Shown here piece after piece: positions 5,105-27,942 of a DNA stretch of 27,942 nt. The stretch's first letter is position 1. Every line of letters begins with the position of its first letter. A model generated the notes under the pieces. The model was not told where the DNA came from and did not search any database. It was given only the letters and a program-made list of their open reading frames with translations. The position numbers were made by a program, and so were the translations under genes. Source of the DNA: Gammaproteobacteria bacterium (GTDB taxonomy: Bacteria > Pseudomonadota > Gammaproteobacteria > Granulosicoccales > Granulosicoccaceae); contig JAHQVR010000160.1 of assembly GCA_019634245.1 (NCBI GenBank), positions 1 to 27,942 of the forward strand, read 5' to 3'.

Positions 5105-5128
5105 ATCAAATATTGAGTTTTATAAAAC

Positions 5129-5148: not shown

Positions 5149-5192
5149 ATTAACCCCCGAATGAACTTGTAAAAGTGCAATCGGGAACACCA

Positions 5193-5224: not shown

Positions 5225-5242
5225 CAGCAACAGGAAAATAGC

Positions 5243-6496
5243 ATGAAAAAGCTTCTAGCCGTATTGGCAACCAGTGTATTGGCGGGTTCTGCCTTCGCCA
5301 GCGATAAAATCATAGTGGAGTTTGCGTACCCGTACAGTCACCTGTTTGACGTAACGTATGAAAAAATACTGCCAAAGTTCTACGAACAGCACCCGGACAT
5401 CGAAGTCAAAATGCGTGCTACTTATGAAAGTTACGAGGACGGAACCAACACCATCTTACGCGAGGCGGTAGCCGGAACCCTCCCCGACGTCACCATGCAG
5501 GGTCTCAATCGCCAGGCCATACTGGTTGAAAAGGGCATTGCAAAATCTCTAGAACCCTGGATCGCCAAGGAATCAGATTTCGCCAAGGATGGGTATCACA
5601 AAGCCATGCTGGATCTCGGTACTTTTGCCGGGGAAGTTCATGGCCTGCCTTTTTCAATTTCGTTACCAGTGGGTTACTACAACATGGAAGTCATGGCTAA
5701 GGCCGGTTACAACGCGGACAACCTGCCCACGAGCTGGCCAGAGGTCATCGAAGCCTGTGGAAAACTTCGCGATGCCGGTGTCGCAAACCCGATGTTTTGG
5801 GGATGGAATATTACGGGCAACTGGTTTCTTCAGGCACTGATGTGGAGTCAGGATGAGCCGACAGTCAACGGTGCAGATTTCAGACTCGACGAGCCTTCAG
5901 GTCTGACCGCTCTGAATACCATGAAAAATCTGTTTCGAGGTTGCGATATGCAAAACCTGGAATGGAAAGCCGCACTAGCGTCTTTCTCTGCCGGAGAGAT
6001 CGGCATGATGTATTGGTCAACTTCTGCTGTAGGAGCCGTTGAGCGGGCGATGGGAGATTTTACACTCGTCACAAATGAGTACCCGGGACTTGATGATGGC
6101 AGTCCACTGGGACTGCCAGCCGGAGGCAACTCCGCCATGATGGTGTCAACTTCAGAGAACCCTGAAGAACTGGAAGCGGCGTGGAAATGGCTGAAGTTTA
6201 TTACGTCCGGCGAAGGTGCTGCCGATGTCGCTCGTACTACTGGTTACATGCCACCGAACCAGGCTGCCAATGAAATCATTCTGAAAGATTTCTATCAGCA
6301 GAATCCAGCTAAAGCAACAGCCGTCAGGCAATTACCTCTTTTACGTGAATGGCAGGCTTATCCTGGCGACAATGGTCTTGCTGCCACGCAGGTTATTTAC
6401 GATGGTATTGAAGGCATCGTGACGGGAGAGTATGACGACATGGAAGAGCTTCAGGCAGAACTCGCCGAAGAAGTTCAGGAGCTACTGACACAGTAA
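5243..6496 (+). CDS. ugpB: Periplasmic solute-binding protein, UgpB-like
   Basis: This 417-residue family-1 extracellular binding protein has a signal peptide (residues 1-19, cleavage near AFA-SD). ATG is preceded by AGGAAA. The C-terminal part, GYMPPNQAA (residues 334-342) followed by FYQQNP and an RQ pair, closely follows the corresponding GYLP...FYEKNP...RQ stretch of E. coli UgpB as I remember it. A Trp-rich segment around FWGWNITGNWF also fits the UgpB binding-site region. The predicted ligands are sn-glycerol-3-phosphate or glycerophosphodiesters, which agrees with the phosphodiesterase gene downstream. A general sugar-binding protein of the same family cannot be excluded. Strong hairpins bracket the gene on both sides, which is common for highly expressed binding-protein cistrons. 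Confidence 0.82.
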   Translation: MKKLLAVLATSVLAGSAFASDKIIVEFAYPYSHLFDVTYEKILPKFYEQHPDIEVKMRATYESYEDGTNTILREAVAGTLPDVTMQGLNRQAILVEKGIAKSLEPWIAKESDFAKDGYHKAMLDLGTFAGEVHGLPFSISLPVGYYNMEVMAKAGYNADNLPTSWPEVIEACGKLRDAGVANPMFWGWNITGNWFLQALMWSQDEPTVNGADFRLDEPSGLTALNTMKNLFRGCDMQNLEWKAALASFSAGEIGMMYWSTSAVGAVERAMGDFTLVTNEYPGLDDGSPLGLPAGGNSAMMVSTSENPEELEAAWKWLKFITSGEGAADVARTTGYMPPNQAANEIILKDFYQQNPAKATAVRQLPLLREWQAYPGDNGLAATQVIYDGIEGIVTGEYDDMEELQAELAEEVQELLTQ

Positions 6497-6509
6497 GCAC
6501 TCTCGATTG

Positions 6510-6538
6510 TCACCCGCGGCGATAACAGCCGCGGGTGA
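6510..6538 (+). terminator. Strong hairpin between binding-protein and phosphodiesterase genes
   Basis: An 11-bp perfect stem, TCACCCGCGGC (6510-6520) / GCCGCGGGTGA (6528-6538), with loop GATAACA. It begins 13 bp after the ugpB-like stop. The tail ATCTCCTTT is only weakly T-rich, so read-through to the phosphodiesterase at 6574 is likely. It probably protects the binding-protein mRNA or lowers downstream expression. Confidence 0.55.
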
Positions 6539-6573
6539 ATCTCCTTTACGTCACCACAGTTGAGCAGGTATAG

Positions 6574-7398
6574 ATGAAACTATTACAGATGACAGACATC
6601 CATCTCACCCCCCCAGGAAAGACTATCGGTGGCCGCGACCCCAATGAGAATTTCAAGCGAGCGCTATCCCATGCCATGGATTTCCATAGCGATGCTGAAG
6701 GATTGTTTCTTACCGGCGATTTGTCTGATTGGGGAGAAACAGACGACTATGAACGTTTAAAGATGATTATTGCTGATATTAAAATGCCTGTGCATCTGTG
6801 CATTGGAAATCACGATGATAGAAAAACGTTTCTAAATTCATTCCCGGAATGGGAGGGTGAGGACGGGTTTGTCCAACATGTGATCAAGTTGTCTGCTGGT
6901 AATGCCATAACGCTTGATACTTGGGGTGAGGCTACACACGCTGGGCATTTCTGTGACTTGAGAGCAGATTGGTTAGCTAAGCAATTAACCGATCTACCAG
7001 GACCAATCTGGGTTTTTATGCATCACAACCCGGTGGCAACTCGAATTAAACCGATGGATCAGATTATGTTGCTTGATTCGCAGCGCTTCAAGCAGACCAT
7101 TGCGCCGCACAAAGATAAAATTGCACACCTTTTCCATGGGCACTGCCATTTACCTTTATCCGGAAATATTGCAGGTGTATCGTTTTCAGCACCCCGTGGA
7201 ACCAACCACGCGGGATGGCCCGACTTCTCTGCGGAGCGGTTACTCTCCGCGTCTGATCTACCAGAGAGTTACTCGGTCATATACGCTGAGGCAGATAGTA
7301 CAATGTGTGCGATGGTTGAGTACGGGTACAGTGGCGAAATACGATCTGAAGGGTCCCCCGAATACGAAAACTGGGATCAGGCCACCATGATCCGGTGA
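6574..7398 (+). CDS. Calcineurin-like metallophosphodiesterase, GpdQ-like
   Basis: This 274-residue cytoplasmic enzyme (no signal peptide) has all the dinuclear-metal ligands: D8 and H10 (TDIH), D49 (TGDLSDWG), N79-H80 (GNHDD), H150 (MHHNP), and H190 and H192 (GHCH). Length and spacing match the glycerophosphodiesterase GpdQ and the related class III cyclic-nucleotide phosphodiesterases (CpdA/Rv0805). Sitting last in a ugp-like operon, it takes the place UgpQ has in E. coli, so cleavage of imported glycerophosphodiesters to glycerol-3-phosphate plus an alcohol is the best guess. cAMP phosphodiesterase is the main alternative. The ATG follows AGCAGGT. A strong hairpin lies between it and the binding-protein gene. 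Confidence 0.84.
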   Translation: MKLLQMTDIHLTPPGKTIGGRDPNENFKRALSHAMDFHSDAEGLFLTGDLSDWGETDDYERLKMIIADIKMPVHLCIGNHDDRKTFLNSFPEWEGEDGFVQHVIKLSAGNAITLDTWGEATHAGHFCDLRADWLAKQLTDLPGPIWVFMHHNPVATRIKPMDQIMLLDSQRFKQTIAPHKDKIAHLFHGHCHLPLSGNIAGVSFSAPRGTNHAGWPDFSAERLLSASDLPESYSVIYAEADSTMCAMVEYGYSGEIRSEGSPEYENWDQATMIR

Positions 7399-9478: not shown

Positions 9479-10549
9479 CTACCTGATTCGAGCGCCAGTG
9501 CTCTCATCAAACACAAACAGTTGATCACTGGGGAGAATTATTCCGACATCATCACCCTGCAACCCTGTAAAGTCTTTAGGGGCTTTAATCGATATTTGAT
9601 CACCACCCCAATCCACTGTGACCAGTGTGTGATCGCCGATCAGTTCGTTAGTGTAGATTTTTCCTGTAAGAGTACCTTGTGATGGTGGCGCTACAGCGCA
9701 ATCTTCGGGACGGATACCGACAACGGCCTTCTCGACATGATCCTGAACCTGCGTCTTAATGGCAACACCTTGTGTGTAAAACTCGTTGCCCCTCAGAGAA
9801 CCGTGGACGACGTTCATCGGTGGCGACCCGATGAACTGCGCAACAAAGAGGTTCGCCGGGTCATTGTAGATCTGAGCCGGTGTAGCCAGTTGTTGCAAAA
9901 CTCCTTTCTCGAGAATGGCAACCCGATGCGCCAAAGTCATGGCTTCAATCTGGTCGTGAGTTACATAAATAGTTGTGATACCCATGGATTGCTGCATGTG
10001 CTTAAGCTCAGCTCGCATGTGCCCGCGTAACTTAGCATCGAGATTCGACAGCGGCTCGTCCATCAGAAACACCGATGGCCTGCGAATAATAGCTCGGGCC
10101 AATGCGACACGCTGTCGCTGACCGCCAGACAGTTCTCGCGGGAAGCGATCCAATAATCCGTCGAGTTGCACCTGGCTAGCGGCTTCTACGATAGCCGAGT
10201 CCATCTCCTGCTTTGAGACTTTGCGCACCTTGAGCGGAAATCCGATGTTTTCAGCAACCGTTTTATGTGGATACAGCGCATACGATTGGAAGACCATTGA
10301 GATATTGCGGTATTTAGGCAAGATTTCCGTGACATCCTGGTCTTCGATATATACACGCCCGGCTGTTGGTGTCTCCAAACCAGAGAGAATTCTAAGAGCA
10401 GTTGTTTTTCCAGATCCCGATGCGCCGAGCAGCACCACGAACTCTCCCGGTTCCACTTCGAGATCGAAGTCTCTTAGCACTTGAACCGAACCAAAGCTCT
10501 TTTCTATATTCTCAAATCGAACCGATGTTTTTTGCAAATCGCCTGCCAC
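9479..10549 (-). CDS. ABC transporter ATP-binding protein, UgpC/MalK type (second system)
   Basis: This 356-residue ATPase is of typical family length. Walker A is GASGSGKTT (42-50), Q-loop Q88, signature LSGGQ (140-144), Walker B with D164-E165, and switch H198 in THDQ, followed by the C-terminal regulatory beta-domain of the MalK/UgpC class. The start is GTG at 10549, 3 bp after the stop of the preceding permease gene, with AAGGGT upstream. It is last in an SBP-permease-permease-ATPase operon and should energise that importer. It lacks the helical-domain insertion found in the ATPase at 2092-3276, so the two systems are not recent duplicates. Sugar or polyol specificity is inferred from the neighbours. 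Confidence 0.9.
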   Translation of the reverse strand: MAGDLQKTSVRFENIEKSFGSVQVLRDFDLEVEPGEFVVLLGASGSGKTTALRILSGLETPTAGRVYIEDQDVTEILPKYRNISMVFQSYALYPHKTVAENIGFPLKVRKVSKQEMDSAIVEAASQVQLDGLLDRFPRELSGGQRQRVALARAIIRRPSVFLMDEPLSNLDAKLRGHMRAELKHMQQSMGITTIYVTHDQIEAMTLAHRVAILEKGVLQQLATPAQIYNDPANLFVAQFIGSPPMNVVHGSLRGNEFYTQGVAIKTQVQDHVEKAVVGIRPEDCAVAPPSQGTLTGKIYTNELIGDHTLVTVDWGGDQISIKAPKDFTGLQGDDVGIILPSDQLFVFDESTGARIR

Positions 10550-10552
10550 AGG

Positions 10553-11737
10553 TTAACCCTTTATCGCGCCAGATAACACGCCTTTAGAAATGAACCGCGT
10601 GAGTAATATCGCCATTACGATGACCGGAATGATCATCACTACAATCAGCGCACACATCTCCCACCAAAATATGCCTTTCTCTCCAGTATTCTTAGCCGCC
10701 ACCATGATCGGCATAGTTTGGACTTTAACCGTCGCTAAAAAGACTGCAAAGAGGTATTCATTCCAAGTTAGAACGAGTATTAGAAGTGTGGTGGCAGCCA
10801 GACCCGGGCGAGTTAGCGGCAGTACAATCTCCCTAAAAATACCGATACGTGTGGCACCGTCAAGCTGCGCAGATTCCTCCAGTTCAATCGGAAGACTGGC
10901 AAAAAAGTCATGCATCAACCATACGACGATCGGCATATTTGCTACCGCATAAAGCAGGATCAACGCTATATGCGTGTCGAGCAGTTTCACAGCCTGAAAC
11001 ATCACATAAATAGGTATCACCACGACAATAGGTGGCAAGATTCTCTGCGAAATAATCCAGAACAGTATGTCCCCATTGCCAAGCTTCATTTTAAAGTGGC
11101 GCCCAAACGCGCGCACCAGAAAAAAGAACAGTGCTAAGGCTACGCTGGAGGAAACCCACCACGGAATTTTGTAGTAGCTAGTGGCCAGAATAACGGCAAT
11201 AATCAACAGTACGAACATCATGATATTGCCGAACTTTGGTGAGTACTGGATGCGAGCCAAGGCGTAAGCTGCCATCGACCCAACCAGCACACAAAGCGCT
11301 GTGGCAAAAATACTGATCACGACTGAATTGGTGAAGGCCAAATAGATTTTACATATCTGTGGCTCCATGGGTGAAATAGTCACCAATGGCGAGAGTACAA
11401 ACGCCACACTGTTGTAAGCCAATAAACCGAATTGACGCCCGATTGAGGCAATGTTGCAATGCGGATCTTCAGTGAACTGCACCCGCCATGCATCGAGCGT
11501 GGGCTGAAAATCTAAGAACGGGATATAGAACGGCCCTTGATTCACGGCCGCTTGGTCTTTGAAGGACGTAATTATGACCCAATATATGGGAAACAATACA
11601 ATGATGGTCCAGAGGATCAGCAGTGAGTAGGCAATGAACTTCGCAGCCGGTGACATCTTCCCCACCGCTGGCGCTTCAAACAACCGTTGCACTAACGTTT
11701 TACGTGCCGCCTCAAACCGATAACTGGCATCACTCAT
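10553..11737 (-). CDS. Carbohydrate ABC transporter permease (MalG class) with extra membrane insert
   Basis: At 394 residues it is about 110 longer than a usual MalG-type subunit (270-300). It has an N-terminal membrane segment (about 34-56), a long periplasmic loop (60-130), the core segments, the EAA loop ELEESAQLDGATRIGIFREI (285-304) and the tail RFISKGVLSGAIKG. Residues about 172-226, between the segment ending AAYALARIQYS and ILPPIVVVIPIY, hold an extra pair of hydrophobic stretches (174-187 and 193-209) plus a basic linker. In normal family members these flanking parts are nearly adjacent. The ATG overlaps the previous gene by 4 bp. The partner permease is also enlarged, but elsewhere. 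Confidence 0.87.
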   Translation of the reverse strand: MSDASYRFEAARKTLVQRLFEAPAVGKMSPAAKFIAYSLLILWTIIVLFPIYWVIITSFKDQAAVNQGPFYIPFLDFQPTLDAWRVQFTEDPHCNIASIGRQFGLLAYNSVAFVLSPLVTISPMEPQICKIYLAFTNSVVISIFATALCVLVGSMAAYALARIQYSPKFGNIMMFVLLIIAVILATSYYKIPWWVSSSVALALFFFLVRAFGRHFKMKLGNGDILFWIISQRILPPIVVVIPIYVMFQAVKLLDTHIALILLYAVANMPIVVWLMHDFFASLPIELEESAQLDGATRIGIFREIVLPLTRPGLAATTLLILVLTWNEYLFAVFLATVKVQTMPIMVAAKNTGEKGIFWWEMCALIVVMIIPVIVMAILLTRFISKGVLSGAIKG

Positions 11738-12888
11738 CGGCTGGGCCTTCTGATTCGACCCAGAACCACATAGTTAAAAAACGATGCACAGACCACCACC
11801 GTCAGTATCAGTAATAAATACGCTATTGCCGCCGAAGATCCCAGATCATTAGCGCGCCAAATATACATGGAATTCAGTGTCATCGATTCGGTTGCTGAGC
11901 CCGGACCTCCACCGGTCATAATGTTGGGCAAATCGACAATCTTAAACGCTTCTATCATTCGGATGAGTAACACCGTCACAGCAACAGGCACTATTTGCGG
12001 CCAAGTTATCTCGCGAAAAATCTGAAAGCTAGAAGCACCGTCGACCTGCGCTGCCTCTACATGATCACGCGGAATATTCTCTAGCGCTGCCAGCATGCAT
12101 ATAAAAATAAAGGGAATCCATTGCCACGAATCGCCAATCATCATGACAAATCGTGCTGACCACGCATCAACAGACCACACCCAGTTTTCAAGTCCAAACA
12201 CACCCAGCAGAGGCTGAATGGGGCCTTTAGTCACATCAGCTAACATCCGCATGGCATAGCCAATACCCAATGGTGTAATCATGAGTGGAATAAAGAAAAC
12301 CACTCTAAAAAAGTTCTTACCCTTAATAGGCTGGGAACACAGAAAGGCTAACCCGGTTCCAATTACAAACTGCAGTGTGCAACCAACGATCACATAAAAA
12401 AGTGTGGTATACAGTGTACCTATGGCATTGCCGGACAACAGCGATGCACACAATATCCAACTAAGAAAAATCCCCATGGCCGCAGAGATCGTGCGTCCGA
12501 TCATACCGACCCAAGTGGCTTTGCCAAATGACCGAAACCACCACCAAACAATCGCAATGACGACGATCGCGAACACCAGCATACCGACGATATGAACCGG
12601 TTCAGTGCGACCAAGGAAATGCACCTCGGAGCTACCGAAAAACTGTTTGGAAAAATTGCGAAACCCAACATACCGGAACTTCAAACCGTCGGGAGTAAAC
12701 CTCACCCGACTAACGGCAAAGAACAACGAATAAATGGTAGGAAAGATAGCAAAGATTAAAATTAGCGTCACGGCCGGTGCGATAAAGAAAGTACCGCAAT
12801 GCCGATCCACCCACTCGCCAAAACGATCGCGCCGGGATGCGCCAGCCAGAACAGACTCCGGCTGGCGCTCATGATTATAGGAAAGCAT
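11734..12888 (-). CDS. Carbohydrate ABC transporter permease (MalF class) with extra membrane insert
   Basis: This 384-residue permease is about 80-90 longer than the common 290-310. The first membrane segment is near 38-60. Residues about 98-155 add two further hydrophobic segments (100-117, with WWWF, and 131-152) before the usual second core segment (about 160-185). The EAA loop reads HVEAAQVDGASSFQIFREI (276-294). ATG at 12888 is preceded closely by AGGGG. The binding-protein gene ends 45 bp upstream and the next permease overlaps by 4 bp. Extra segments in a MalF-type subunit are known (E. coli MalF has a large periplasmic loop), but this insert is membrane-like. Confidence 0.87.
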   Translation of the reverse strand: MLSYNHERQPESVLAGASRRDRFGEWVDRHCGTFFIAPAVTLILIFAIFPTIYSLFFAVSRVRFTPDGLKFRYVGFRNFSKQFFGSSEVHFLGRTEPVHIVGMLVFAIVVIAIVWWWFRSFGKATWVGMIGRTISAAMGIFLSWILCASLLSGNAIGTLYTTLFYVIVGCTLQFVIGTGLAFLCSQPIKGKNFFRVVFFIPLMITPLGIGYAMRMLADVTKGPIQPLLGVFGLENWVWSVDAWSARFVMMIGDSWQWIPFIFICMLAALENIPRDHVEAAQVDGASSFQIFREITWPQIVPVAVTVLLIRMIEAFKIVDLPNIMTGGGPGSATESMTLNSMYIWRANDLGSSAAIAYLLLILTVVVCASFFNYVVLGRIRRPSR

Positions 12889-12933
12889 AGCCCCTGATCA
12901 GTTCCAAATAGCTGATTCAGTCGCTACAGACAA

Positions 12934-14400
12934 TTACGACCCAAGCGCAAGGCCCTGAGCACTTACCTGCTCATCCCGACCGAAGTCTTCTGTGATCTCT
13001 TCCCAACCTTCTACGATGTTCTCCAACGCTTCCTCTACGCTGATCTCATTAGCCAGGTAGCGTGCTAGTTCAGTATCTAACACGACACCGGTGTACTGTT
13101 GCGCACCAGGAATCTTCATGTCAGAGGCCATATTGGGATTATCAAGTGCAGCATTGATGGCACCAAGGTAGTTTTCAGCCAACTCTCTAGGCATTCCTGC
13201 ATCAACCCAGAGATCAATATTTTTCAGCTGAGAAACCCTGTACGGATTATAACCGGTTTCACCGATCGTTACGTCGACGCCAGACTGCTCCGGCTGATTC
13301 ATGTGCGAGAGAAACGCATAGGCGGCCGCTTTGGTTTTTTCATCGGCACCCTTGTTGACCGCACCAGCCCAACCGCCGAAGGCAGCAAAAGGGGCGTAAT
13401 TAATTCCGTCAATCGAATGCGGTGCAGACTCGGCCGTGACAGGCACCAATTCACCAGACTCCCGATCAAGAACTTCAGTTGAGCCAATGGCAGCAACTGC
13501 GTAGAGTTTGCCTTTAACCGCTGTTGCATCGTCTGCGAGCTGCAATGTGCCCGGATCACCCCACTCAACAATCAAACCGCAGCGACCTGCCTTGAACAGC
13601 GCACGCGTATCACCGATGTCCATGTTCAGCTCTTCAGGTGGACCGTATTCGCCCGTAGCTTTGTACAACTCGAAGGCTCGCTTCCAACCCGCATTGTTGA
13701 TTAGCGGCTGCATCGTCTTATTATCAAAATGGAACCCTTGCGCTGTACCCTGGGTTTGTACGATAGGGGCTGCAAAGGTTTGAATTGCGAAATACGACTG
13801 TGCGTTTCGCTTTTTAAAGATACATGAACCGTAGTCTGCTTCTCCGTCGCCATTCATATCTTTACCGTGAATTTTCGAGGCGACATCCAGGTAGTCTTCC
13901 CAGGTCTTCGGCGGTTCAAGACCGGCTTCTGAAAGAATATCCGTTCTGTAGTACACCATCTGAAAATCACCATCGACCATCAGTAACTTGGTTTTGCCAC
14001 CCACCTTTTGGCCAAACTCGCGAAAGTACGGTGCTATATCATCCATTTGAATTTTGTCGTCTTTGGCAATATACGGATCGAGGTCTTCGAGTAGGCCTGC
14101 AGCGTCCAGCTCCACACCCCAGCCAGCGGCGAACACTCCCACGTCAATCGAGTTGGTACCGGTCGCCCAGTCATTTTGTATTTTCGGGAAAATTTCTGCA
14201 AAGGGTACCTCTGTAACCACAATTTTTGCGCCAGTCATCTCTTCAAAATCTTTACCACGTTCGATGAGTGGCCCTGCAATAACATAACCTGGGCGGGTGA
14301 GTACATTCACAGTCACGCCACTGAATTCCTGAGCATGCGCGGTACCGCCAAGTGAAACTGTACCGAGCAATGACGCCAGTAGTGTCTTACGTACAGACAT
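12934..14400 (-). CDS. Periplasmic solute-binding protein, family 1 (second system)
   Basis: This 488-residue protein is large for the family (usually 400-450). It has a signal peptide cleaved near AHA-QE (residues 21-25). The family-1 lobe pattern is visible: VYYRTDILSEAGLEPPKTWEDYLDVA (149-174) is the standard hinge-near motif. DMNGDGEAD (181-189) matches the calcium-binding EF-hand loop spacing (DxNxDGxxD) and is followed by Cys193. GGWAGAV and the C-terminal helices complete the fold. GGAG precedes the ATG at good spacing. It is the first gene of the operon and divergent from an SDR and a zinc dehydrogenase, so a sugar or polyol is the likely ligand. The exact ligand is not recognisable. 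Confidence 0.86.
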   Translation of the reverse strand: MSVRKTLLASLLGTVSLGGTAHAQEFSGVTVNVLTRPGYVIAGPLIERGKDFEEMTGAKIVVTEVPFAEIFPKIQNDWATGTNSIDVGVFAAGWGVELDAAGLLEDLDPYIAKDDKIQMDDIAPYFREFGQKVGGKTKLLMVDGDFQMVYYRTDILSEAGLEPPKTWEDYLDVASKIHGKDMNGDGEADYGSCIFKKRNAQSYFAIQTFAAPIVQTQGTAQGFHFDNKTMQPLINNAGWKRAFELYKATGEYGPPEELNMDIGDTRALFKAGRCGLIVEWGDPGTLQLADDATAVKGKLYAVAAIGSTEVLDRESGELVPVTAESAPHSIDGINYAPFAAFGGWAGAVNKGADEKTKAAAYAFLSHMNQPEQSGVDVTIGETGYNPYRVSQLKNIDLWVDAGMPRELAENYLGAINAALDNPNMASDMKIPGAQQYTGVVLDTELARYLANEISVEEALENIVEGWEEITEDFGRDEQVSAQGLALGS

Positions 14401-19739: not shown

Positions 19740-21512
19740 TTACTCCAACCAACCTGGCAGTGTCAATACACGCTCACCCGTGCACGCTGCTTCCACGCAC
19801 TCTCTCAACGAACCGAAATGAATTCTCTTTTTTACAAGCCCTGGCCCATAGTGGGCATATTTCCCGGAGTTGGTCATCAACGCTTCTGCACCTGACGGTA
19901 TAACCGGTTTGGTGATCATGCACCAGCACGTGTCGTTCATTGTCTGAACCCCAAAAGCCTCCATAGCTGCGATGTATCCTGCGGTCTCAGCTTGTTGTTG
20001 TACATATCTGCCAAGTGTTACCACGACACTTACGTCATCGTGCTTTTTTTTATTCCTGCAAACCTCCACTAGCGCTGCACACTCTGTCAACGAGAAATGA
20101 GGATTTCCCAAACAAATCATATCAACAGTAGATTCTGATGCTGTATTCAGTTCAAACCAGGCCGTTTTTAGATCCTCAACGGTTACCGACCTATTTGGAA
20201 TTTCCGTGGAGCGCACATGCTGATGAGCCACTGTTGACTCTGGGGTAACCTCATGAAGGTGAAACATTGGACTAGCAGAGGTGGTGGCAAAAGCGGCACT
20301 AAACGCTTTTAAATCATCGGTATTTGGATTCAAGGGGTCAAGACCATAGACCATCGGGATGGAATTGGGACTCACACTGCCAATGTGGTAACCCAACAGT
20401 GGCCAAAAAGCATCATCGGGGGATTCGATGGGGGCGACTGTGATACTCATTGTCGGCAAACGACCCGATTCTAAATGTGTCGTCGCTGCAGGTGCTCTTC
20501 CGGTTAGCGCAATAAACACTTCAAGAAAGTCAGGATACTTTTGCGTTTTAGCTCCAATAACACTATTGGCATAGGCCACCGCATTCGACTCAGCCCAAAC
20601 AATTTGCTCACCCAAGGCGGGAGCAGTAGGTAGTAAATAGGGGGCACAGGTATAGCTTAACTGAGCACCCATGGCCATATAGGCATCGCCTACGGCACTG
20701 GCAGACTCGCCAAAGTTTTCTTCTACACCTTGAGTGCGCCAACAGCGTTTATCTACCGATAGTGCATTTAATGTGGTGGGTATATTAACCTGAGCGCCTA
20801 GCTCCACCAATTTTTGGGCAAACATCAATGTTGACTTACCGTTATATACGCACGCATCAATATGGGCTTGAGTGACATCGATCAACGTATCAGCATTTTG
20901 AATGTCTGCCATTTTAAGCACCACCTGCATCGCAATTTGCGCAGCTCGTCCATCTTTTCCCTCAAGAATATCTCGATCTTTTTTGCTCAGAGTAATACCA
21001 CTGAACGCAGATTCTTCTGTGAATTGGTGCGAGTTCTCTGCCTCACCATTGTCGCGGACGAGATCGGCTTGGCGCCGCGCCGACCCGGCTCTATCGGTGG
21101 TTAGCGCAATGGAACTGCCGTAGATGGATAAGTGCCGTGCCTTAAGTAGGGATTCTTGCGTGCCTTTGTCCAAAACGACCACTGGAATGGATTTTTGGTA
21201 CAAGGCTTCTGCTACCAACACGCCGAGCGTGATGATTTCCTCTGGCTCAGTAAATATAAAGCCAGCCGGTGCTACATCGTTTATCAGTAACTCTAGAACG
21301 ACGCCACTACCAGAACACGATCCACGACCGCTGGGTAGCAACAATATTTTATTGTTTAGAGTCAAACCATGCCAAGGGTGATGCTGATCGATGACCACAC
21401 CATTCGTTGGATCGACACCGCCCCAAAAGCTTAACCCCACATCGGATACCAAAATCTCACCGGAAGCATTGCCATGTACTAGTGGCCTAGCTCTTAATGT
21501 TTCTTGAATCAT
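19740..21512 (-). CDS. Aconitase X family dehydratase, fused small and large domains (cis-3-hydroxy-L-proline dehydratase-like)
   Basis: This 590-residue protein joins an N-terminal swivel domain (AcnX small, DUF126; about 1-135, with the conserved LPSGRGSCSGSG at 59-70) to the large aconitase-X domain (DUF521; about 170-585, with ENFGESASAVGDAYMAMGAQ, YTCAPYLLP and GEQIVWAESNAVAYANSVIGA). Characterised bacterial members dehydrate cis-3-hydroxy-L-proline to delta1-pyrroline-2-carboxylate using an iron-sulfur centre; archaeal ones dehydrate mevalonate-5-phosphate. The fused form fits the bacterial hydroxyproline type. It is the last gene in the minus-strand catabolic run, 102 bp after the LysR gene, and converges with the ArsR gene. 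The substrate could differ given the unusual neighbours. Confidence 0.85.
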   Translation of the reverse strand: MIQETLRARPLVHGNASGEILVSDVGLSFWGGVDPTNGVVIDQHHPWHGLTLNNKILLLPSGRGSCSGSGVVLELLINDVAPAGFIFTEPEEIITLGVLVAEALYQKSIPVVVLDKGTQESLLKARHLSIYGSSIALTTDRAGSARRQADLVRDNGEAENSHQFTEESAFSGITLSKKDRDILEGKDGRAAQIAMQVVLKMADIQNADTLIDVTQAHIDACVYNGKSTLMFAQKLVELGAQVNIPTTLNALSVDKRCWRTQGVEENFGESASAVGDAYMAMGAQLSYTCAPYLLPTAPALGEQIVWAESNAVAYANSVIGAKTQKYPDFLEVFIALTGRAPAATTHLESGRLPTMSITVAPIESPDDAFWPLLGYHIGSVSPNSIPMVYGLDPLNPNTDDLKAFSAAFATTSASPMFHLHEVTPESTVAHQHVRSTEIPNRSVTVEDLKTAWFELNTASESTVDMICLGNPHFSLTECAALVEVCRNKKKHDDVSVVVTLGRYVQQQAETAGYIAAMEAFGVQTMNDTCWCMITKPVIPSGAEALMTNSGKYAHYGPGLVKKRIHFGSLRECVEAACTGERVLTLPGWLE

Positions 21513-21614
21513 CTATTTGATTCCAGTCCAGACGATAGGCCTTTAGAAGAAAGGAGCGAAAAACTACATGGCTGCTTCATCGCACGTAATTTTTAAAGAC
21601 TTATTATCACTAGG

Positions 21615-22520
21615 CTAACACGTCTCAGCGATGTAATTACTGACAGTGTGTTGAGCCAACTCTGCAAGATCACCCACTACCTTCGGTGATGTATTGGCGT
21701 CGTATCGGGCTAGAAACTCAAGCGGTGCAGGTGCCCAAGGATAGTTTAAGGGGACCAAGTCGCCTTGCTCAAAATAACGTTTGGCCATGACCAAAGGAAT
21801 TGCACTCACCCCCATCCCTTGAACACACATGTGGATACACGGTGCAATACTACTGGAGGGAACGATCGTTGGACGGTGGCTATTCTTCTGAGTAAAGTGC
21901 TGCTCAATTTCTTGAAACTGCAGAGTGTCGCGGGAATGCACCAGAATAGTCTGGGCCTGCATATCATCAAACGAGAGTTCTGTAGCTTGACTCACCGCGA
22001 GATCACGCGACGCTACCCACTGAAAGGGAAAACTTCCTAAGTCATTGGTACCAGTCGTAGTGCGAGAAAAAGGTCCGTTTTGAAACGTTATATCCAGAGC
22101 GCGTGAGAAGAGATCGGGCTTGAGATTAACCGACAAATCCACGGTGAGTTCGAGATTTAAGTTCGGAAACTGTTGTTTGACCTGCTTTAGAAATATCGGT
22201 AACCAGGTGCTCACTATCATCTCTGTCACGCCGAGCCTGATGGTTCGATTGGACAAATGTAGTAGCCCGGCCTGCGCTTCGAACCGCTCAGCACTTTTTA
22301 CAACATCCCTAGCCGATTCTAAGAGTTCTTTACCACGGCGTGTCATTGATATCGCCCCGGCACTGCGTTCAAACAATGGTGCGCCTATCGCTTGTTCCAA
22401 ATTCGCCACACGGGTGGAAATGTTGGGTTGAGTTGTGTTTAATCGCTCAGCGGCTTGCCGAAAGTTTCCTAAATCGGCTACCCAAACAAACGCTTCAATC
22501 TGTTTGTAATTGATGTTCAC
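21615..22520 (-). CDS. LysR-family transcriptional regulator
   Basis: This 301-residue protein has an N-terminal winged helix (residues 1-60, with NFRQAAERLNTTQPNISTRVANLEQAIGAPLFER) and a periplasmic-binding-protein-like effector domain (about 90-295). The start is GTG at 22520, 12 bp after the stop of the FAD oxidoreductase gene. It is co-directional with, and embedded in, the catabolic operon between the oxidoreductase and aconitase X genes, rather than divergent as is usual for LysR regulators. It probably senses the substrate or an intermediate of the operon and may have its own or an upstream target promoter outside the window. Confidence 0.9.
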   Translation of the reverse strand: MNINYKQIEAFVWVADLGNFRQAAERLNTTQPNISTRVANLEQAIGAPLFERSAGAISMTRRGKELLESARDVVKSAERFEAQAGLLHLSNRTIRLGVTEMIVSTWLPIFLKQVKQQFPNLNLELTVDLSVNLKPDLFSRALDITFQNGPFSRTTTGTNDLGSFPFQWVASRDLAVSQATELSFDDMQAQTILVHSRDTLQFQEIEQHFTQKNSHRPTIVPSSSIAPCIHMCVQGMGVSAIPLVMAKRYFEQGDLVPLNYPWAPAPLEFLARYDANTSPKVVGDLAELAQHTVSNYIAETC

Positions 22521-22532
22521 AGTGACAAATTA

Positions 22533-23867
22533 CTAAAGTTCATGTCCTGCCCGGTGTTCTCCCCACGCTAACTTAACAGCGGCACCGAGGGTATCTAACG
22601 GAGCTGGCGGTAATCTTTGGGGGACATCTTCGGCCATTTGATCGTCTAACATATCGGTTTTAAATCCACTGGCTAATTCAGCTGCCAACTTTCCCTGTAT
22701 TGTACCTTTGGCCGTGCCCAATCCGTTTTGACAACACGCCGAATATAGGTTTGTGTTCATCTGCCCAAACGCTGACACCTTATTCCTGCTCAGACACAGT
22801 CGGCCACCCCATCGATATTCCAACGACACTCCCGCCAGCATAGGAAACCGGTTGGCAAAGGAGCGATCATGCGTCTTCGATACCTTAGCGATCCTACCCG
22901 CCGGCACACTTAACGAAGGGTCGTAGGTGGCGCGATTTCTAATGAGTATGCGAGAGCCCGTTGAATCGGTTATACGCCGAACCGACGTGCCAAGGGGATC
23001 GGCGGGTGTCAGCGCCCAATTAGGTTCTCCACCAAGTTGATGGCACTCCAGATCGGTGAGTTTCCGACTGAGAGAGCCATACGTATACACGTGAACCAAA
23101 TGTTTTGGATAGTATCCAAAGCTTTGAAGATGGCCATTAACACAGAGTATCACCTTAGGTGCAACGATTGACCCTTTGTGAGTCTTTGCACACCAGTGCG
23201 ATCCTTGTGCGCTTAACTCACATACCGCCGAATGTTCATAAATCCTAAGCCGGTTGCTTTCAATACGATCCGCGAGTGATCGTATGTACATTGCCGGTTG
23301 CAACATCACGGTGCCAGCAGTGTACAACCCATCTTGGTAGTAATCGGTACCGGTAATGGCTTGCATTTCATTTGCGCCGAGTCGATCAAACGCTTCCCCC
23401 AGCCCTTTCAAATGCTCCGCATAGGAGTCGTTGTGCGCTATCCCTCTGGATGTAACGGCACCATTGATCTTGCCAGTTTGCGCTATAGCTTCATCAGGCA
23501 TCTCAAAGGCGTTTTTGGCCTCAAGCGCGTAGGCAATGCCAGCTCTGTTCAGCCGTAATTGTCGTTGATTGTCATTCAAGCTGCCGCTGTAGTCGCTGGA
23601 ATTAAGCTCGTGCGGCACATCAATCATAAACCCCGAATTTCTACCTGCTGGCCCTTCTGCTAGTGAACTTGCCTCGAGCACGGCAATACTGTCGCCTGGG
23701 TGGAGTTCCGCGAGCCGGCGGGCGGCGGATAAACCGGCAAAACCAGCACCGATCACCAACCAGTCAGCAACCGCATGCTCTTCCAGTGCGGCTCGTTGTC
23801 TGCCCGGTGGCAATATCGCGTTCCAGGCCGCTGGGCCAGGATCGTGCGGTAGCTGCGATACTTTCAT
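22533..23867 (-). CDS. FAD-dependent oxidoreductase of the DAO family (PuuB/sarcosine-oxidase-like)
   Basis: This 444-residue protein has the dinucleotide-binding motif VIGAGFAGLSAARRL (38-52) ending in acidic E65, then GPAGRNSGF (72-80), as in PuuB-like amine oxidases. The C-terminal half has the DAO motif EYRWGGRLCLSRNKVSAFG and a final GLGTAKGT stretch contacting FAD. Family members oxidise secondary amines such as sarcosine, dimethylglycine, gamma-glutamylputrescine or D-amino acids. It begins 5 bp after an MttB-superfamily methyltransferase gene, so an N-methylated amino acid left after one demethylation is a natural substrate. A PuuC-like aldehyde dehydrogenase lies two genes upstream. 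The specific substrate is not readable. Confidence 0.84.
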   Translation of the reverse strand: MKVSQLPHDPGPAAWNAILPPGRQRAALEEHAVADWLVIGAGFAGLSAARRLAELHPGDSIAVLEASSLAEGPAGRNSGFMIDVPHELNSSDYSGSLNDNQRQLRLNRAGIAYALEAKNAFEMPDEAIAQTGKINGAVTSRGIAHNDSYAEHLKGLGEAFDRLGANEMQAITGTDYYQDGLYTAGTVMLQPAMYIRSLADRIESNRLRIYEHSAVCELSAQGSHWCAKTHKGSIVAPKVILCVNGHLQSFGYYPKHLVHVYTYGSLSRKLTDLECHQLGGEPNWALTPADPLGTSVRRITDSTGSRILIRNRATYDPSLSVPAGRIAKVSKTHDRSFANRFPMLAGVSLEYRWGGRLCLSRNKVSAFGQMNTNLYSACCQNGLGTAKGTIQGKLAAELASGFKTDMLDDQMAEDVPQRLPPAPLDTLGAAVKLAWGEHRAGHEL

Positions 23868-23872
23868 CGCAA

Positions 23873-25441
23873 CTAATACTCGGTGTTCAACGCATCAACG
23901 GCGGGTATTTCGCGCTCTCGTTTCGCTATGTAGTCTCGCAAGGCCTCGTCTTTGGCAATATCCAGAGCTGGCTCTTCATAGTGGTTTAGTAGCAATCGCG
24001 CTTCCCGCAAGGCGCGTTCGGTGATCTCAACACTCCCATCAGCGATCCACTGCTCAACTGAATTGTTGTCAAACATTTTCGGCATGAAAAACGCGTCCTG
24101 GAATTTCTCCAACGTGTGCGCGTGTCCGAGGTAGTGACCACCGGGGCCAATGTCTCTAACAGCTGCCAAGCCTTCTTCAAAATCATCCCAGCGAATTCCC
24201 TCAGCCATTCGATAGCCCATCGCACACTGCTCCGCATCCACGATAAACTTAGCCATAGAGCAATGCATCCCCGCTTCGTTCCAACCTGCCGAATGCCAAA
24301 TGTAATTCGCACCCGCCATCAACACAGCCATCATGGTTGAAGCGCTTTCATAGCCTGCCTGCGCATCAAATGTTTTTGCACCGCCGAGTGTGTTGGAGGT
24401 ACGCCAGGGAACCTGATAAAACCGCGCCATTTGACCAATCATAAAGTTCATCAGACTGATCTCCGGCGTACCGGCCATCGGTGCACCGGAAGCCATCGAC
24501 ACCGTGGATAAGTAATGCCCATAGATCGCCGGGCACCCCTTTCGCACCACCTGCGTATATGCCAACGCCGAAAGTGCTTCAGCATTTAGCTGCGCCACCG
24601 CTGGTGCTGTGGAGGCGGGTGTGTTCGCACCGCCCAGTACAAACGGCGAACATAGAACGGGCTGATTGCGTTTATTAAACGCTCTCATCGCGGACAACAT
24701 GGTTTCATCCCATACTAGCGGAGAATTGCCATTGCAATTGCCCGTGACCACCGCGTGAGTCTCCATAAACTCCCGGTCGAACAATATCTCACACATGTCC
24801 AACACATCTTCGGCATTCTTACCAGAGGTGGTCATTCCCATAAAGGTCTTATCGGAATACTTCATTGACGAATAGGTGATGCGCAAATGCCGGTGCGATA
24901 CCACATGATCCATCGGCTCTACGATGTGGTGGGCACTGGAGTGAATAGCGGGCAGCATGTGGGAGAGTTTATGGAAATTCGCAAGATCATCCAGCGTCGG
25001 ACCACGCCGTTTGTCATCTAAATCCCGAAGATACGGCGCTCCCGTCATGGGTACAAATATAGAATGATCCTGACCAAATGGCAGATTGTTTTCAGGGTTT
25101 CGTGCATGGAACGTGAAACTCGAGGGAATCGACTGAATGAGCTCGCGTACTAATTCTCTATCAAGATGGACTCGATCACCTTCGCGAACATCGGCACCAG
25201 CCGCTTTCCAATCCGCTATGGCTTGATCATCACGAAAAACTACGCCGACTTCTTCAAGAATATCCATCGACGCTGAATCGATTTTCCGAACTTGCTCCTC
25301 ATCCATGGGTTCCACTAAAGGCAATCGTCGCTTCAGCGCTGGCAACATGCGCGTATCACGCATTGCACGCTTCTTCCTCAAGGATGCTCGGCCGCCACGA
25401 CGAGTTCGGCCCTCACTGAGCTTAGTGTCGGATGCGCTCAC
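23873..25441 (-). CDS. MttB-superfamily quaternary/tertiary amine methyltransferase without pyrrolysine
   Basis: From GTG at 25441 the protein has 522 residues. That GTG forms a GTGA overlap with the aldehyde dehydrogenase stop, which I prefer to the longer ATG-start frame at 25483 that would overlap by 46 bp. A basic N-terminus (RTRRGGRASLRKKR) is followed by the MttB TIM barrel: EPMDEEQVRKIDSASMDILEEVGV, TGAPYLRDLDDKRRGPT, VTGNCNGNSPL, and GGAKTFDAQAGYESASTMMA. Classical trimethylamine MttB carries an amber-encoded pyrrolysine; this frame has no internal TAG. Non-Pyl members move a methyl group from betaines (glycine betaine, proline betaine, carnitine) to a corrinoid protein. No corrinoid protein or methylcorrinoid:THF methyltransferase gene lies in the window. 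Confidence 0.88.
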   Translation of the reverse strand: MSASDTKLSEGRTRRGGRASLRKKRAMRDTRMLPALKRRLPLVEPMDEEQVRKIDSASMDILEEVGVVFRDDQAIADWKAAGADVREGDRVHLDRELVRELIQSIPSSFTFHARNPENNLPFGQDHSIFVPMTGAPYLRDLDDKRRGPTLDDLANFHKLSHMLPAIHSSAHHIVEPMDHVVSHRHLRITYSSMKYSDKTFMGMTTSGKNAEDVLDMCEILFDREFMETHAVVTGNCNGNSPLVWDETMLSAMRAFNKRNQPVLCSPFVLGGANTPASTAPAVAQLNAEALSALAYTQVVRKGCPAIYGHYLSTVSMASGAPMAGTPEISLMNFMIGQMARFYQVPWRTSNTLGGAKTFDAQAGYESASTMMAVLMAGANYIWHSAGWNEAGMHCSMAKFIVDAEQCAMGYRMAEGIRWDDFEEGLAAVRDIGPGGHYLGHAHTLEKFQDAFFMPKMFDNNSVEQWIADGSVEITERALREARLLLNHYEEPALDIAKDEALRDYIAKREREIPAVDALNTEY

Positions 25442-26943
25442 GCGATCGTGTCTGCGGCAGCAGAGTCGGTAAGATCTATCCAAATAGTTTTCAGTTCAGT
25501 GTATTGGTCATGAGCATATACGCCATTGTCGCGCCCACCAAACCCGGACTGCTTATAACCACCAAACGGTGTGGAGCTATCCCCTTCGCCATAACAATTG
25601 ATCGTAACGGTCCCGGCTCGAATCGATCGTGCCGTTCGCAGTGCTTGTTTGCCATTGGCACTGAAAACACTGGCGGTGAGCCCATAGTCCGTAGTGTTCG
25701 CGATCTCTATGGCTTGTTCGGTCGATGACACCGAGATAACGCACAAGATTGGGCCGAATATCTCTTCAGTTGCAATAGCACTGGTGGCTGACACATTGTC
25801 TACTAGTGTTGGAGTCAAGTAACCCTGATTCATTTGTCCGCCAGCTCGAATATCAGCGTCATTGCACAGAGATAGATAATGTTGAACCTTGTTAGTGTGG
25901 TCTGCGTCTATTAGCGCACCTATATGATTGGCAGGATCCAGAGGATCCCCTGTCTTCCAGTCGCGAATACGAGCGATCATGTGTTCCAATAGTTGATCTT
26001 TGATGCATTCATGCACGATGAGTCGTGAGCTCGCCGAGCAATTCTCCCCCATATTCCAAAACGCCCCATTAACCACATGTTCGGCTACTAAATCGAGGTT
26101 CTCGGCATCTTCTAGCACGATCGCAGGGTTTTTACCTCCGCATTCGAGTACGACCTTTTTTAAATTGCTGTCGGCTGCATAGCGCAAGAACAGACGACCG
26201 GTTTCCGTGGAACCGGTGAAACTAACCATGTCAACATCGTTGTGAAGCCCTAAAGGCATTCCGACATCGGGCCCAGTGCCCGGCAGCACTTGAAGTACAC
26301 CGCTAGGAATACCCGCCTCAGTAGCCAACTCAGCTATTCGCAAAGCGGTAAGTGAAGTTTGTTCGGCCGGTTTAACAATCACTGAATTCCCCGACGCCAA
26401 CGCTGGGCCGATCTTCCAAGCCAGCATCAACAAGGGGAAATTCCAAGGCAGAATCGCTGCAACCACGCCGATCGGTTCTCGAACAATCATGGCTAGAGCA
26501 TCTTCAGATGCAGGTGCAGTTTGATCGTAGATTTTATCGATGGCTTCAGCGTGCCACTTAATCGTTTCAATGGCTTCCGGGATATCCACCAACTCACAAT
26601 CACGAATCGGTTTTCCACTGTCCAATGACTCCATAACCGCAAGCTCTCGACGGTTGCGCGTCATTAGCTTGCACAGCTGTATCAGCGCAGCCTTGCGTTC
26701 AGATGGGTGCAGTGAGCACCAAAGACCTTGTTCAAACGCTTCTTTAGCTTTTTGTGCCGCAAAATTCACATCAGATTGATCACATGCAGCAATGCGGCTT
26801 AATACATCACCAGTGGCAGGATTGAGGGACTCGAGTGCCTGCCCATGTCCAGCTTGATATTTACCCGCAATATAGGCGGCCGCCGGAAAATCCAAATCGG
26901 CGGCAATCGCGGCATACTCTTCCTTGGTCAATAGATCAGTCAC
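25438..26943 (-). CDS. NAD(P)-dependent aldehyde dehydrogenase, PuuC-like
   Basis: This 501-residue ALDH has all active-site residues: N168 in PWNFP, K191, E267 in LECGGKN and the nucleophile C302 in MGENCSASSR. EEIFGP and the C-terminal PFGGYKQSGFGGRDNGVYA complete the family pattern. ESLDSGKPIRD, EAIDKIYDQ and ELKTIWIDL are very close to E. coli PuuC (gamma-glutamyl-aminobutyraldehyde dehydrogenase) as I remember it. The start is GTG at 26943, overlapping the upstream TGA by 4 bp. In the operon it may oxidise 2-oxoglutarate semialdehyde made by the upstream lyase, or an aldehyde released by the FAD oxidoreductase. Confidence 0.88.
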   Translation of the reverse strand: MTDLLTKEEYAAIAADLDFPAAAYIAGKYQAGHGQALESLNPATGDVLSRIAACDQSDVNFAAQKAKEAFEQGLWCSLHPSERKAALIQLCKLMTRNRRELAVMESLDSGKPIRDCELVDIPEAIETIKWHAEAIDKIYDQTAPASEDALAMIVREPIGVVAAILPWNFPLLMLAWKIGPALASGNSVIVKPAEQTSLTALRIAELATEAGIPSGVLQVLPGTGPDVGMPLGLHNDVDMVSFTGSTETGRLFLRYAADSNLKKVVLECGGKNPAIVLEDAENLDLVAEHVVNGAFWNMGENCSASSRLIVHECIKDQLLEHMIARIRDWKTGDPLDPANHIGALIDADHTNKVQHYLSLCNDADIRAGGQMNQGYLTPTLVDNVSATSAIATEEIFGPILCVISVSSTEQAIEIANTTDYGLTASVFSANGKQALRTARSIRAGTVTINCYGEGDSSTPFGGYKQSGFGGRDNGVYAHDQYTELKTIWIDLTDSAAADTIA

Positions 26944-27851
26944 AGTGCCGACTCCTGTTCAATACGCTCAATAGTGGTATTCATGGTCCGGATTACTTCG
27001 GCTAGTTGCCTTTTGTCATCTTTGTTCAGCGGTTGTAGCGGTTTTCTCGGTGGTCCTGCGTCAATACCGCGAAGACTCAAACCATGCTTTATGCACTGAA
27101 CAAACTTGCCGCCTTGTTCCAGCACTCGCATCAAAGGCAACATCGCGGACATAATTCTTCGCCCTTTGGTGAAATTGCCTTCCACAGCACAGGCTTTGTG
27201 CAAGGCTATGTGAGCTTCGGGCGCGAAATTCGACCCCGCACACACCCACGACTGAGCCCCCCAAGCAAAGAATTCCAAGGCTTGATCATCCATGCCACAC
27301 GACAGTTGAATGTGCGGGTAATCCCGCGCCAGCATGTGCAAACGGTTTGGGTCGCCAGAGCTTTCTTTTATCGCACAAAAGTTTGGACTGCGTCCCAGCC
27401 GATCCAGTGTCTCTGCATCCATGTTTACACTCATACGACCGGGGTAGTTGTACAACATGACTGGAAGATTAGCTGCCCGATCTATTGCCAATGCATGCAA
27501 GGCGATTTCTCTGGAAGTGGGGTATGCATAGGGAGGAGTAGAGACCAACAAGGCATCTGCTCCCACACGCAGTGCTTCCTGGGCAAAGTAGATGCTGTCT
27601 TCTGTTCGAATAGCGCCGGTTCCCACAATCAATGGCACACGATCAGCAATCTCACTTTTGGCCAGGGACATCAGCTCTAATCGTTCTTCAGGCGTTTGCG
27701 CATAGTATTCACCGGTGGTACCAGCGACGATCAACCCTGACACTCCGGCCTCAATTAGCATATTGAGCGTGTCGACAAATCGGTCCTTGTCGATGTCGAA
27801 GTTGGGTTTATGCGGTGTTACCACCGGCGTATAGATACCGTTGAAAATCAT
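26940..27851 (-). CDS. Dihydrodipicolinate synthase/N-acetylneuraminate lyase family lyase (possible HPC deaminase)
   Basis: This 303-residue class I lyase has the phosphate/carboxylate-binding GTTGE (44-48), Y134 in YNYPGR and the Schiff-base lysine K162 in AIKESSGD. It is not biosynthetic DapA by context: it lies in a catabolic operon next to an aldehyde dehydrogenase. The same pair in rhizobial and pseudomonad hydroxyproline pathways is the delta1-pyrroline-4-hydroxy-2-carboxylate deaminase plus 2-oxoglutarate semialdehyde dehydrogenase, so HPC deaminase is the favoured role. Keto-deoxy-sugar aldolase or dehydratase is an alternative. Only 1 bp separates its ATG from the preceding stop. 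Confidence 0.85.
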   Translation of the reverse strand: MIFNGIYTPVVTPHKPNFDIDKDRFVDTLNMLIEAGVSGLIVAGTTGEYYAQTPEERLELMSLAKSEIADRVPLIVGTGAIRTEDSIYFAQEALRVGADALLVSTPPYAYPTSREIALHALAIDRAANLPVMLYNYPGRMSVNMDAETLDRLGRSPNFCAIKESSGDPNRLHMLARDYPHIQLSCGMDDQALEFFAWGAQSWVCAGSNFAPEAHIALHKACAVEGNFTKGRRIMSAMLPLMRVLEQGGKFVQCIKHGLSLRGIDAGPPRKPLQPLNKDDKRQLAEVIRTMNTTIERIEQESAL

Positions 27852-27852
27852 G

Positions 27853-27942
27853 TTAAGAGCTCAATTCCATAACTTCTTCTCTACCAAGAGGCAATGCATC
27901 GGGCAATACGTATTGATCTATGTCTTTTCGAGACAATTCCCA
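27853..27942 (-). CDS. C-terminal 29 residues of an unidentified upstream operon gene
   Basis: On the minus strand the frame is open from the window edge to TAA at 27853-27855, 1 bp before the lyase ATG. It encodes a tail with DIDQYVLPDALPLGREEV followed by MELSS. The tight spacing makes it a real operon member. I do not recognise the family from so short a tail; a racemase or epimerase acting before the lyase would fit the pathway but is a guess. Confidence 0.6.
   Translation of the reverse strand, partial: WELSRKDIDQYVLPDALPLGREEVMELSS

Follow-up and report, generated by a model that had tools for sequence, protein, structure and literature searches.

A conserved operon joining an MttB-type methyltransferase to hydroxyproline-type catabolic enzymes: a candidate corrinoid-dependent route for hydroxyproline-betaine degradation

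The DNA analysed here is a 27,942-nucleotide stretch of a gammaproteobacterial genome of the family Granulosicoccaceae (GenBank assembly GCA_019634245.1, contig JAHQVR010000160.1, positions 1 to 27,942), referred to below, at its full length, as the window. Near its end lie four genes for a lyase of the dihydrodipicolinate synthase (DHDPS) family, an aldehyde dehydrogenase (ALDH), a non-pyrrolysine (non-Pyl) methyltransferase of the MttB superfamily and a flavin adenine dinucleotide (FAD) enzyme of the D-amino acid oxidase (DAO) family. Comparison of sequences and gene neighbourhoods leads us to propose, with a probability of roughly 0.7, that this four-gene core serves to break down a hydroxyproline betaine by a corrinoid-dependent route, with N,N-dimethyl-4-hydroxyproline (betonicine or turicine) as the likeliest substrate. 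An initial annotation of the window had suggested the breakdown of an N,N-dimethyl (hydroxy)proline or similar betaine in which MttB takes the first methyl group, the FAD enzyme oxidises the remaining N-methyl amine, and AcnX or the lyase and ALDH break the ring. Comparative genomics leaves an N,N-dimethyl hydroxyproline, opened by the FAD enzyme, lyase and ALDH, as the best reading of the cluster. The main inference of that annotation is probably right, provided that the neighbouring protein AcnX is taken out of the core and a corrinoid hub encoded at another place is included.

Results

The operon and its conservation

Six minus-strand genes were found where the initial annotation had placed them and belong to the families it had named, with Pfam and NCBIfam profiles in agreement on the family calls:

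26940..27851, minus strand: DHDPS-family lyase (PF00701, 192.7 bits)
25438..26943, minus strand: ALDH, putative alpha-ketoglutarate semialdehyde dehydrogenase (PF00171, 532.2 bits)
23873..25441, minus strand: non-Pyl MttB-superfamily methyltransferase, proposed hydroxyproline-betaine:corrinoid methyltransferase (PF06253, 696.9 bits)
22533..23867, minus strand: DAO-family FAD oxidoreductase, proposed (N-methyl-)hydroxyproline oxidase or dehydrogenase (PF01266)
21615..22520, minus strand: LysR-family regulator, outside the conserved core (PF00126 and PF03466)
19740..21512, minus strand: AcnX, accessory neighbour (NCBIfam NF051439, 792 bits against a cut-off of 700)

The DHDPS, ALDH, MttB and FAD genes form one tight operon, which is followed by LysR and AcnX. 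Four-base GTGA overlaps join DHDPS to ALDH and ALDH to MttB, and gaps of 5 bp and 12 bp separate MttB from the FAD gene and the FAD gene from LysR. AcnX lies 102 bp from LysR and is therefore joined less tightly than the wording of the initial annotation implies. The window appears to span an entire contig of 27,942 bases.

Chance does not explain the layout of the first four genes, which recurs in most of the relatives examined. Our neighbourhood survey covered the best 80 of 588 confirmed genome loci carrying a window-type MttB and was made with the window proteins together with neighbours from plasmid loci; the clusters of open reading frames (ORFs) from these loci contain many antisense shadow ORFs, and clusters without a tie to a query were left out. 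DHDPS, ALDH and FAD genes are all present in 62 of the 80 loci, and in 59 of those 62 they run wholly in the direction of MttB. Twelve of the 18 loci lacking the full trio are short-flanked. That the genes might prove unlinked in other genomes had been raised as a way to refute the proposal, and the check showed otherwise: the trio is complete in 48 of 54 well-flanked loci (at least 4.5 kb left and at least 3 kb right of MttB), and in a set of 48 genomes from the order to which the nearest metagenome-assembled genome (MAG) belongs, presumably the window's own order, 21 of the 23 genomes with both MttB and DHDPS carry them on one contig. The same 48 genomes include four with MttB only, three with DHDPS only and 18 with neither (p = 1e-6), so that window-type MttB occurs in 27 and DHDPS in 26; a 47% paralogue in G550 was dropped from the MttB count. 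A common gene order in relatives is GntR-DHDPS-ALDH-MttB-(HpbD)-(SDR-SDR)-FAD, and a GntR gene (at least 40% identity) is present in 57 of the 80 loci. The window edge falls 91 bp upstream of the DHDPS start, the place at which many relatives have their GntR gene. The pair of short-chain dehydrogenase/reductase (SDR) genes follows MttB in many loci, at L002:12652-14162 among others, and does so also where HpbD is missing.

HpbD and hydroxyproline modules beside MttB

A link to hydroxyproline betaine comes from HpbD, an enzyme that carries out both the proline betaine racemase and the hydroxyproline betaine 2-epimerase reactions. In Cereibacter, MttB is followed directly by an enolase-family gene whose product reaches 671 bits against PDB entries 4e8g, 4izg and 4j1o and 525 bits against 2pmq and 4h2h, which we take to be the HpbD structures of Paracoccus and Pelagibaca, and relatives of this gene occupy the same place in Leisingera (72%) and Pelagibius (71%). 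When 248 genomes of one Rhodobacteraceae-type family were searched for HpbD at E <= 1e-90 and for MttB at E <= 1e-200, HpbD was found in 14 and MttB in 64, with MttB in 13 of the 14 HpbD genomes compared with 51 of the 234 others (p = 9e-8). MttB lies inside the stretch read in nine of 15 HpbD loci. The remaining six show neither MttB nor a match to two Stc2-type queries in the stretch read, and five of them are in genomes with MttB elsewhere. HpbD was not seen in the window, a fragment of the genome.

Another locus (L127) carries MttB-HpbD-SDR-SDR beside GntR and DAO genes, together with a DHDPS protein 71% identical to the HypD-type protein of Sinorhizobium meliloti and a proline-racemase-family protein (4-hydroxyproline epimerase) that shares 90% identity with its S. 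meliloti counterpart across 332 residues. Here a different hydroxyproline module stands in for the window-type one. At a further HpbD-MttB locus, a DHDPS of a third type (L126:7423-8270; 28% identical to that of the window) stands next to a DAO gene. Betaine transporters are found near the core in some relatives, namely ProV/W/X in L002, L004, L006 and L009 and a BCCT protein in L001 and L176; we regard such proximity as a weaker sign of a role in hydroxyproline-betaine metabolism than the others.

Rieske genes in the place of MttB

Two (L175, L176) of the three genomes in the 48-genome set that have DHDPS without MttB carry an Stc2-type Rieske gene beside DHDPS, so that DHDPS and FAD genes are accompanied by a Rieske gene where MttB would be. 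The two Rieske proteins score 501 and 524 bits to 4qup and 3vca, presumably the stachydrine demethylase Stc2; their top match is 3n0q, an unnamed ring-hydroxylating dioxygenase (597 and 582 bits), and they reach only about 125 bits against carnitine monooxygenase. Genes of this type (at least 57% identity) occur in five of the 48 genomes and in none of the 27 with MttB (p = 0.012). A Rhizobium etli locus (L007) combines the trio with a 4-hydroxyproline epimerase, a betaine ABC transporter and a Rieske gene. No Rieske-type betaine demethylase domain was found among 24 window proteins scanned with Pfam, and MttB stands in its place.

Features of the individual enzymes

PF06253 is matched by the window MttB over profile positions 1-500 of 500. 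The ORF spans 23873-25483, with a likely GTG start at 25441 that yields a 522-aa form, and because its open frame of 536 codons has a terminal stop only, the protein is a non-Pyl homologue with no codon for pyrrolysine. Its nearest named relatives come from Granulosicoccaceae MAGs, at up to 87-88% identity, which makes the host probably a marine gammaproteobacterium of this family. The predicted structure is poor (mean pLDDT 55.6), and we therefore used sequence matches to 4yyc (487 bits), the glycine betaine methyltransferase 9yce (327 bits) and 2qne rather than an analysis of the pocket.

The DHDPS-family lyase has the motifs GTTGE at residue 44, YNYPGR at 134 and AIKESS at 160, the last two of which we take to hold the Tyr and the Schiff-base Lys of the family. 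ALDH has a GENC motif at residue 299 and finds its best NCBIfam model in PuuC (516.6 bits, under the cut-off of 850). For the FAD enzyme the best NCBIfam model is L-pipecolate oxidase, at 114 bits far under the cut-off of 600; there is no PDB sequence match at E <= 0.001, and fold matches bear out the superfamily only, not the substrate. AcnX has both of its Pfam domains and scores 560 bits to PDB 7cnp. The FAD enzyme, whose best relative among the matches listed is 65% identical, and AcnX (44-59% in the order) diverge far more than MttB (about 88%) and DHDPS (87%).

The corrinoid hub and the MttB clade

A Pfam scan of 24 window proteins, from which shorter or overlapping ORFs were left aside, detected no corrinoid protein. 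A standalone PF02607 protein (open frame below about 450 residues) is encoded in 28 of 29 genomes carrying MttB. Eight of 12 gammaproteobacterial MttB genomes have a MetH-size match as well, so the hub there need not be methionine synthase and may serve methyl catabolism only. In gammaproteobacterial relatives the standalone protein lies within such a hub, as in one operon:

L096:1276-7479: corrinoid hub operon encoding a B12-binding protein, DUF1638, a small PF13769 protein, DUF5981, a methylenetetrahydrofolate reductase (MTHFR), a pterin-binding protein and RACo (Pfam)

Its ORF clusters are found also in L093-L102 and L109 and recur in 11 to 15 of 17 loci, and the operon matches the MtgC, DUF1638, MtgD, MetF2 and RamA set of Ruegeria pomeroyi (PMC12478193).

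Twelve genomes that were examined have between one and 14 PF06253 matches each. Eight genomes (G002, G005, G007, G011, G013, G022, G025 and G207) have five to 14 MttB-family genes each, in several deep clades. In a 49-row tree, a branch with 100/99 support sets the window MttB clade off from the MtgB copies near the hub. The authors of the R. pomeroyi study report that PF06253 genes can number up to seven and propose further methylated compounds as substrates (PMC12478193), and several MttB proteins of Eubacterium limosum use one common corrinoid protein (PMC8604678). By analogy, the simplest reading here would be that of MttB paralogues with a common corrinoid hub encoded elsewhere.

AcnX and LysR

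The initial annotation had also considered AcnX as a ring-breaking step, and this part of it is not supported. AcnX stands beside window-type MttB in one of the 80 loci and occurs (44-59% identity) in 19 of the 48 genomes, 12 of the 27 with MttB and seven of the 21 without (p = 0.56); on this linkage and co-occurrence we rejected it as a core step. A relative of the LysR gene (at least 45% identity) is likewise found in one of the 80 loci. AcnX and LysR are lineage-specific neighbours outside the core, and AcnX fits as an accessory for 3-hydroxyproline rather than as the core ring-opening step. AcnX genes often lie inside hydroxyproline clusters, according to Watanabe et al. (PMC5144071), and on S. 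meliloti pSymB AcnX is next to an epimerase.

Only one of the 12 genomes having both AcnX and MttB carries them on one contig. In this genome (G006; L019:689-13360) the two genes are convergent and 30 bp apart, a StcD-type flavoprotein lies about 7 kb from MttB, and the genome has no match to the window DHDPS; the locus is perhaps a variant for 3-hydroxyproline betaine. Another genome, which also has MttB and DHDPS, carries AcnX and an HpbD-like gene (56% identity) some 700 bp apart (G576:C273:3023-6560).

Elsewhere in the window, two UgpC/MalK-type ABC transporter sets occupy 2092-7398 and 9479-14400 (best NCBIfam models below their cut-offs), and a calcineurin-like phosphodiesterase (SpdA-like, below cut-off) follows the set at 2092-7398.

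Discussion

In the pathway that we propose, MttB would move one methyl group from the quaternary nitrogen to the Co(I) of a standalone MtgC-type corrinoid protein whose gene lies elsewhere, an MtgD-like protein would hand it on to tetrahydrofolate, MetF-like proteins would oxidise it, and a RACo/RamA protein would hold the cobalt reduced. The DAO-type FAD enzyme would oxidise the remaining (N-methyl-)cis-4-hydroxy-D-proline to the level of pyrroline-4-hydroxy-2-carboxylate, which the DHDPS-family Schiff-base lyase would dehydrate and deaminate to alpha-ketoglutarate semialdehyde, the substrate from which ALDH would yield alpha-ketoglutarate. For an L-trans substrate, C2 would be inverted by HpbD, and C4 may be inverted by the SDR pair of some relatives. 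The AcnX and LysR of the window would form an added module for cis-3-hydroxyproline. The succession of DAO, DHDPS and ALDH steps is that of the described route from cis-4-hydroxy-D-proline to alpha-ketoglutarate (PMC4113996).

How the second methyl group leaves is a separate matter; the FAD enzyme may remove it, as the initial annotation had it. A StcD-type NADH:flavin oxidoreductase can be ruled out as a universal second demethylase because it is not consistently present in MttB genomes. One possible route, tentative and on balance rather doubtful, would need only one demethylation: the FAD enzyme would oxidise N-methyl-hydroxyproline at a ring carbon to an N-methyl-pyrrolinium, and the lyase would open the ring with release of methylamine, not ammonia. 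A second demethylase, an oxygenase and formaldehyde would then all be unneeded. In favour of this route, the core contains a single oxidase, and among the ORF clusters, not every one of which is annotated, no further recognised enzyme turns up in as many loci; StcD-type flavoproteins (at least 58% identical to that of R. etli) are rarer with MttB in the 48 genomes (8 of 27, compared with 15 of 21 without; p = 0.008); and nine of the 23 genomes with MttB and DHDPS, MAGs among them, have no such flavoprotein even at E <= 1e-100, in a search that covered this demethylase family.

Several observations weigh against hydroxyproline betaine as the substrate of the core, or against parts of the pathway. 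Close sequence kinship of the window DHDPS to characterised HypD was not found: it is 26.7% identical to the S. meliloti pSymB HypD-type protein, which we take to be HypD, and ALDH is 26-27% identical to the HypH-type protein of the same organism. The roles of both enzymes consequently rest on context, and the window DHDPS may be likened to HypD in how it would work only. The full trio is missing from six of the 54 well-flanked loci. HpbD lies inside the locus in seven of the 80 MttB loci and is not enriched with MttB in the 48 genomes, where it occurs (at least 55% identity) in seven, five of the 27 with MttB and two of the 21 without. ProV at 55% identity or more is found in three of the 80 loci and BCCT at 45% or more in none, counts that lower our confidence slightly. 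The core contains no second-step N-demethylase. Of the DHDPS copies without MttB, the one in G532 (L174) has no Rieske gene of the kind described above, and a second copy in G562 (L177) has neither MttB nor a Rieske gene in the stretch read. Finally, a standalone corrinoid protein is present in 45 of the 48 genomes with or without MttB (p = 0.57), so that it is available to MttB, not specifically coupled to it; co-occurrence is uninformative either way on whether it is a specific partner.

Other substrates have to be weighed against the same evidence. In one unlikely case, MttB is an aerobic counterpart of MtpB and its substrate is a cyclic betaine of another kind, either proline betaine (stachydrine) or, for instance, a pipecolate betaine; DHDPS and ALDH would then serve free hydroxyproline or another hydroxylated ring acid. 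In its favour, PMC5144071 names proline betaine racemase and hydroxyproline betaine 2-epimerase together as members of one superfamily. L-pipecolate oxidase is the best model for the FAD enzyme, albeit at a score (114 bits) far below the cut-off, and the Stc2-type enzymes that replace MttB in L175 and L176 are presumably stachydrine demethylases. However, proline catabolism runs through PutA, and proline betaine needs neither DHDPS nor ALDH, although MttB has no partners more constant than these two; related clusters, moreover, hold a 4-hydroxyproline epimerase and a HypD-type gene.

We consider it very unlikely that the window operon degrades 3-hydroxyproline betaine, with AcnX dehydrating the ring after demethylation. 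AcnX is indeed next in the row in the window, and both the convergent MttB and AcnX genes of G006, with their StcD-type flavoprotein and no DHDPS match, and the AcnX near an HpbD-like gene in G576 speak for it. AcnX is nevertheless linked to MttB in one locus of the 80, co-occurs with it at chance and shares its contig in one genome of 12, and its products need neither the conserved DHDPS nor ALDH. Less probable still is a reading in which the substrate of MttB is some unrelated quaternary amine (glycine betaine or carnitine, for example) and the gene has a promoter in common with a hydroxyproline operon merely because the two nutrients become available at once. The glycine betaine methyltransferase 9yce is a recognisable relative, and genomes with up to 14 MttB-family genes would leave room for such a substrate, but the MtgB copies near the hub fall outside the window clade, and proline-type betaines are indicated both by the co-occurrence with HpbD and by the Stc2-type Rieske genes that take the place of MttB.

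Hydroxyproline betaine is a solute of plants and plankton, and many bacteria of the sea and of root nodules carry the core genes. Betonicine has been measured in Antarctic plankton (PMC10579395) and hydroxyproline betaine in radiolarian holobionts (PMC11965087). Degradation of hydroxyproline betaine by the core would link a large and sharply separate MttB clade to a specific osmolyte; many MttB paralogues of marine and root-nodule Proteobacteria have no known substrate. If the proposal is correct, breakdown of this osmolyte would depend on vitamin B12 and not on an oxygenase, its methyl group would pass straight into folate, and ocean data would gain a marker gene for hydroxyproline-betaine breakdown.

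Comparison with known systems

To our knowledge, no genes for breakdown of the carbon skeleton accompany MtpB, MtcB and MtyB of E. limosum. In that system substrate-specific non-Pyl MttB proteins, as proposed here, work with one common corrinoid protein, one tetrahydrofolate methyltransferase and one activase, all encoded elsewhere (PMC8604678); the host there is an anaerobic acetogen, whereas the present MttB lies within a ring-catabolism operon of Proteobacteria. With the MtgBCD glycine betaine system of R. pomeroyi (PMC12478193) gammaproteobacterial relatives have in common a hub like that of standalone MtgC with DUF1638, MtgD, MetF2 and RamA, but the window MttB and the MtgB copies near the hub fall into different clades. 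Catabolism of trans-4-hydroxy-L-proline by 4-hydroxyproline epimerase, cis-4-hydroxyproline oxidase, deaminase and alpha-ketoglutarate semialdehyde dehydrogenase (PMC4113996) uses the same superfamilies for the same succession of reactions. The window DHDPS and ALDH differ from the S. meliloti enzymes in being no close orthologues of them (26-27%).

Clusters with the Stc2-type stachydrine demethylase are typical of rhizobia; the R. etli locus L007 and L176 match the window in having DHDPS, ALDH and FAD genes all together, and L175 in having DHDPS and FAD genes. The Stc2-type oxygenase removes the methyl group as formaldehyde, and R. etli differs in having formaldehyde-detoxification genes nearby. 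The closest parallel is the HpbD-dependent pathway for hydroxyproline betaine and proline betaine in Pelagibaca, Paracoccus and Rhodobacter, reportedly described by Zhao in 2013 and Kumar in 2014. Here as there, HpbD is found (beside some MttB orthologues, though not in the window), DAO, DHDPS and ALDH steps are represented by superfamilies present in the window, and some clusters include betaine transporters; the first demethylation would be made by MttB and a corrinoid protein here and by an oxygenase-type demethylase there. Rhodobacter (Cereibacter) sphaeroides, in which a window-type MttB lies directly upstream of hpbD (L002) and whose strain 2.4.1 has the same MttB on its plasmid, is one of the organisms of the 2014 study, and this neighbourhood may already be in print. 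Our literature search found no paper joining MttB with hydroxyproline, and the titles and abstract openings on hydroxyproline-betaine catabolism name no MttB, which is not proof of absence in print. What is new is probably the use of a corrinoid methyltransferase in place of an oxygenase within the known hydroxyproline-betaine pathway.

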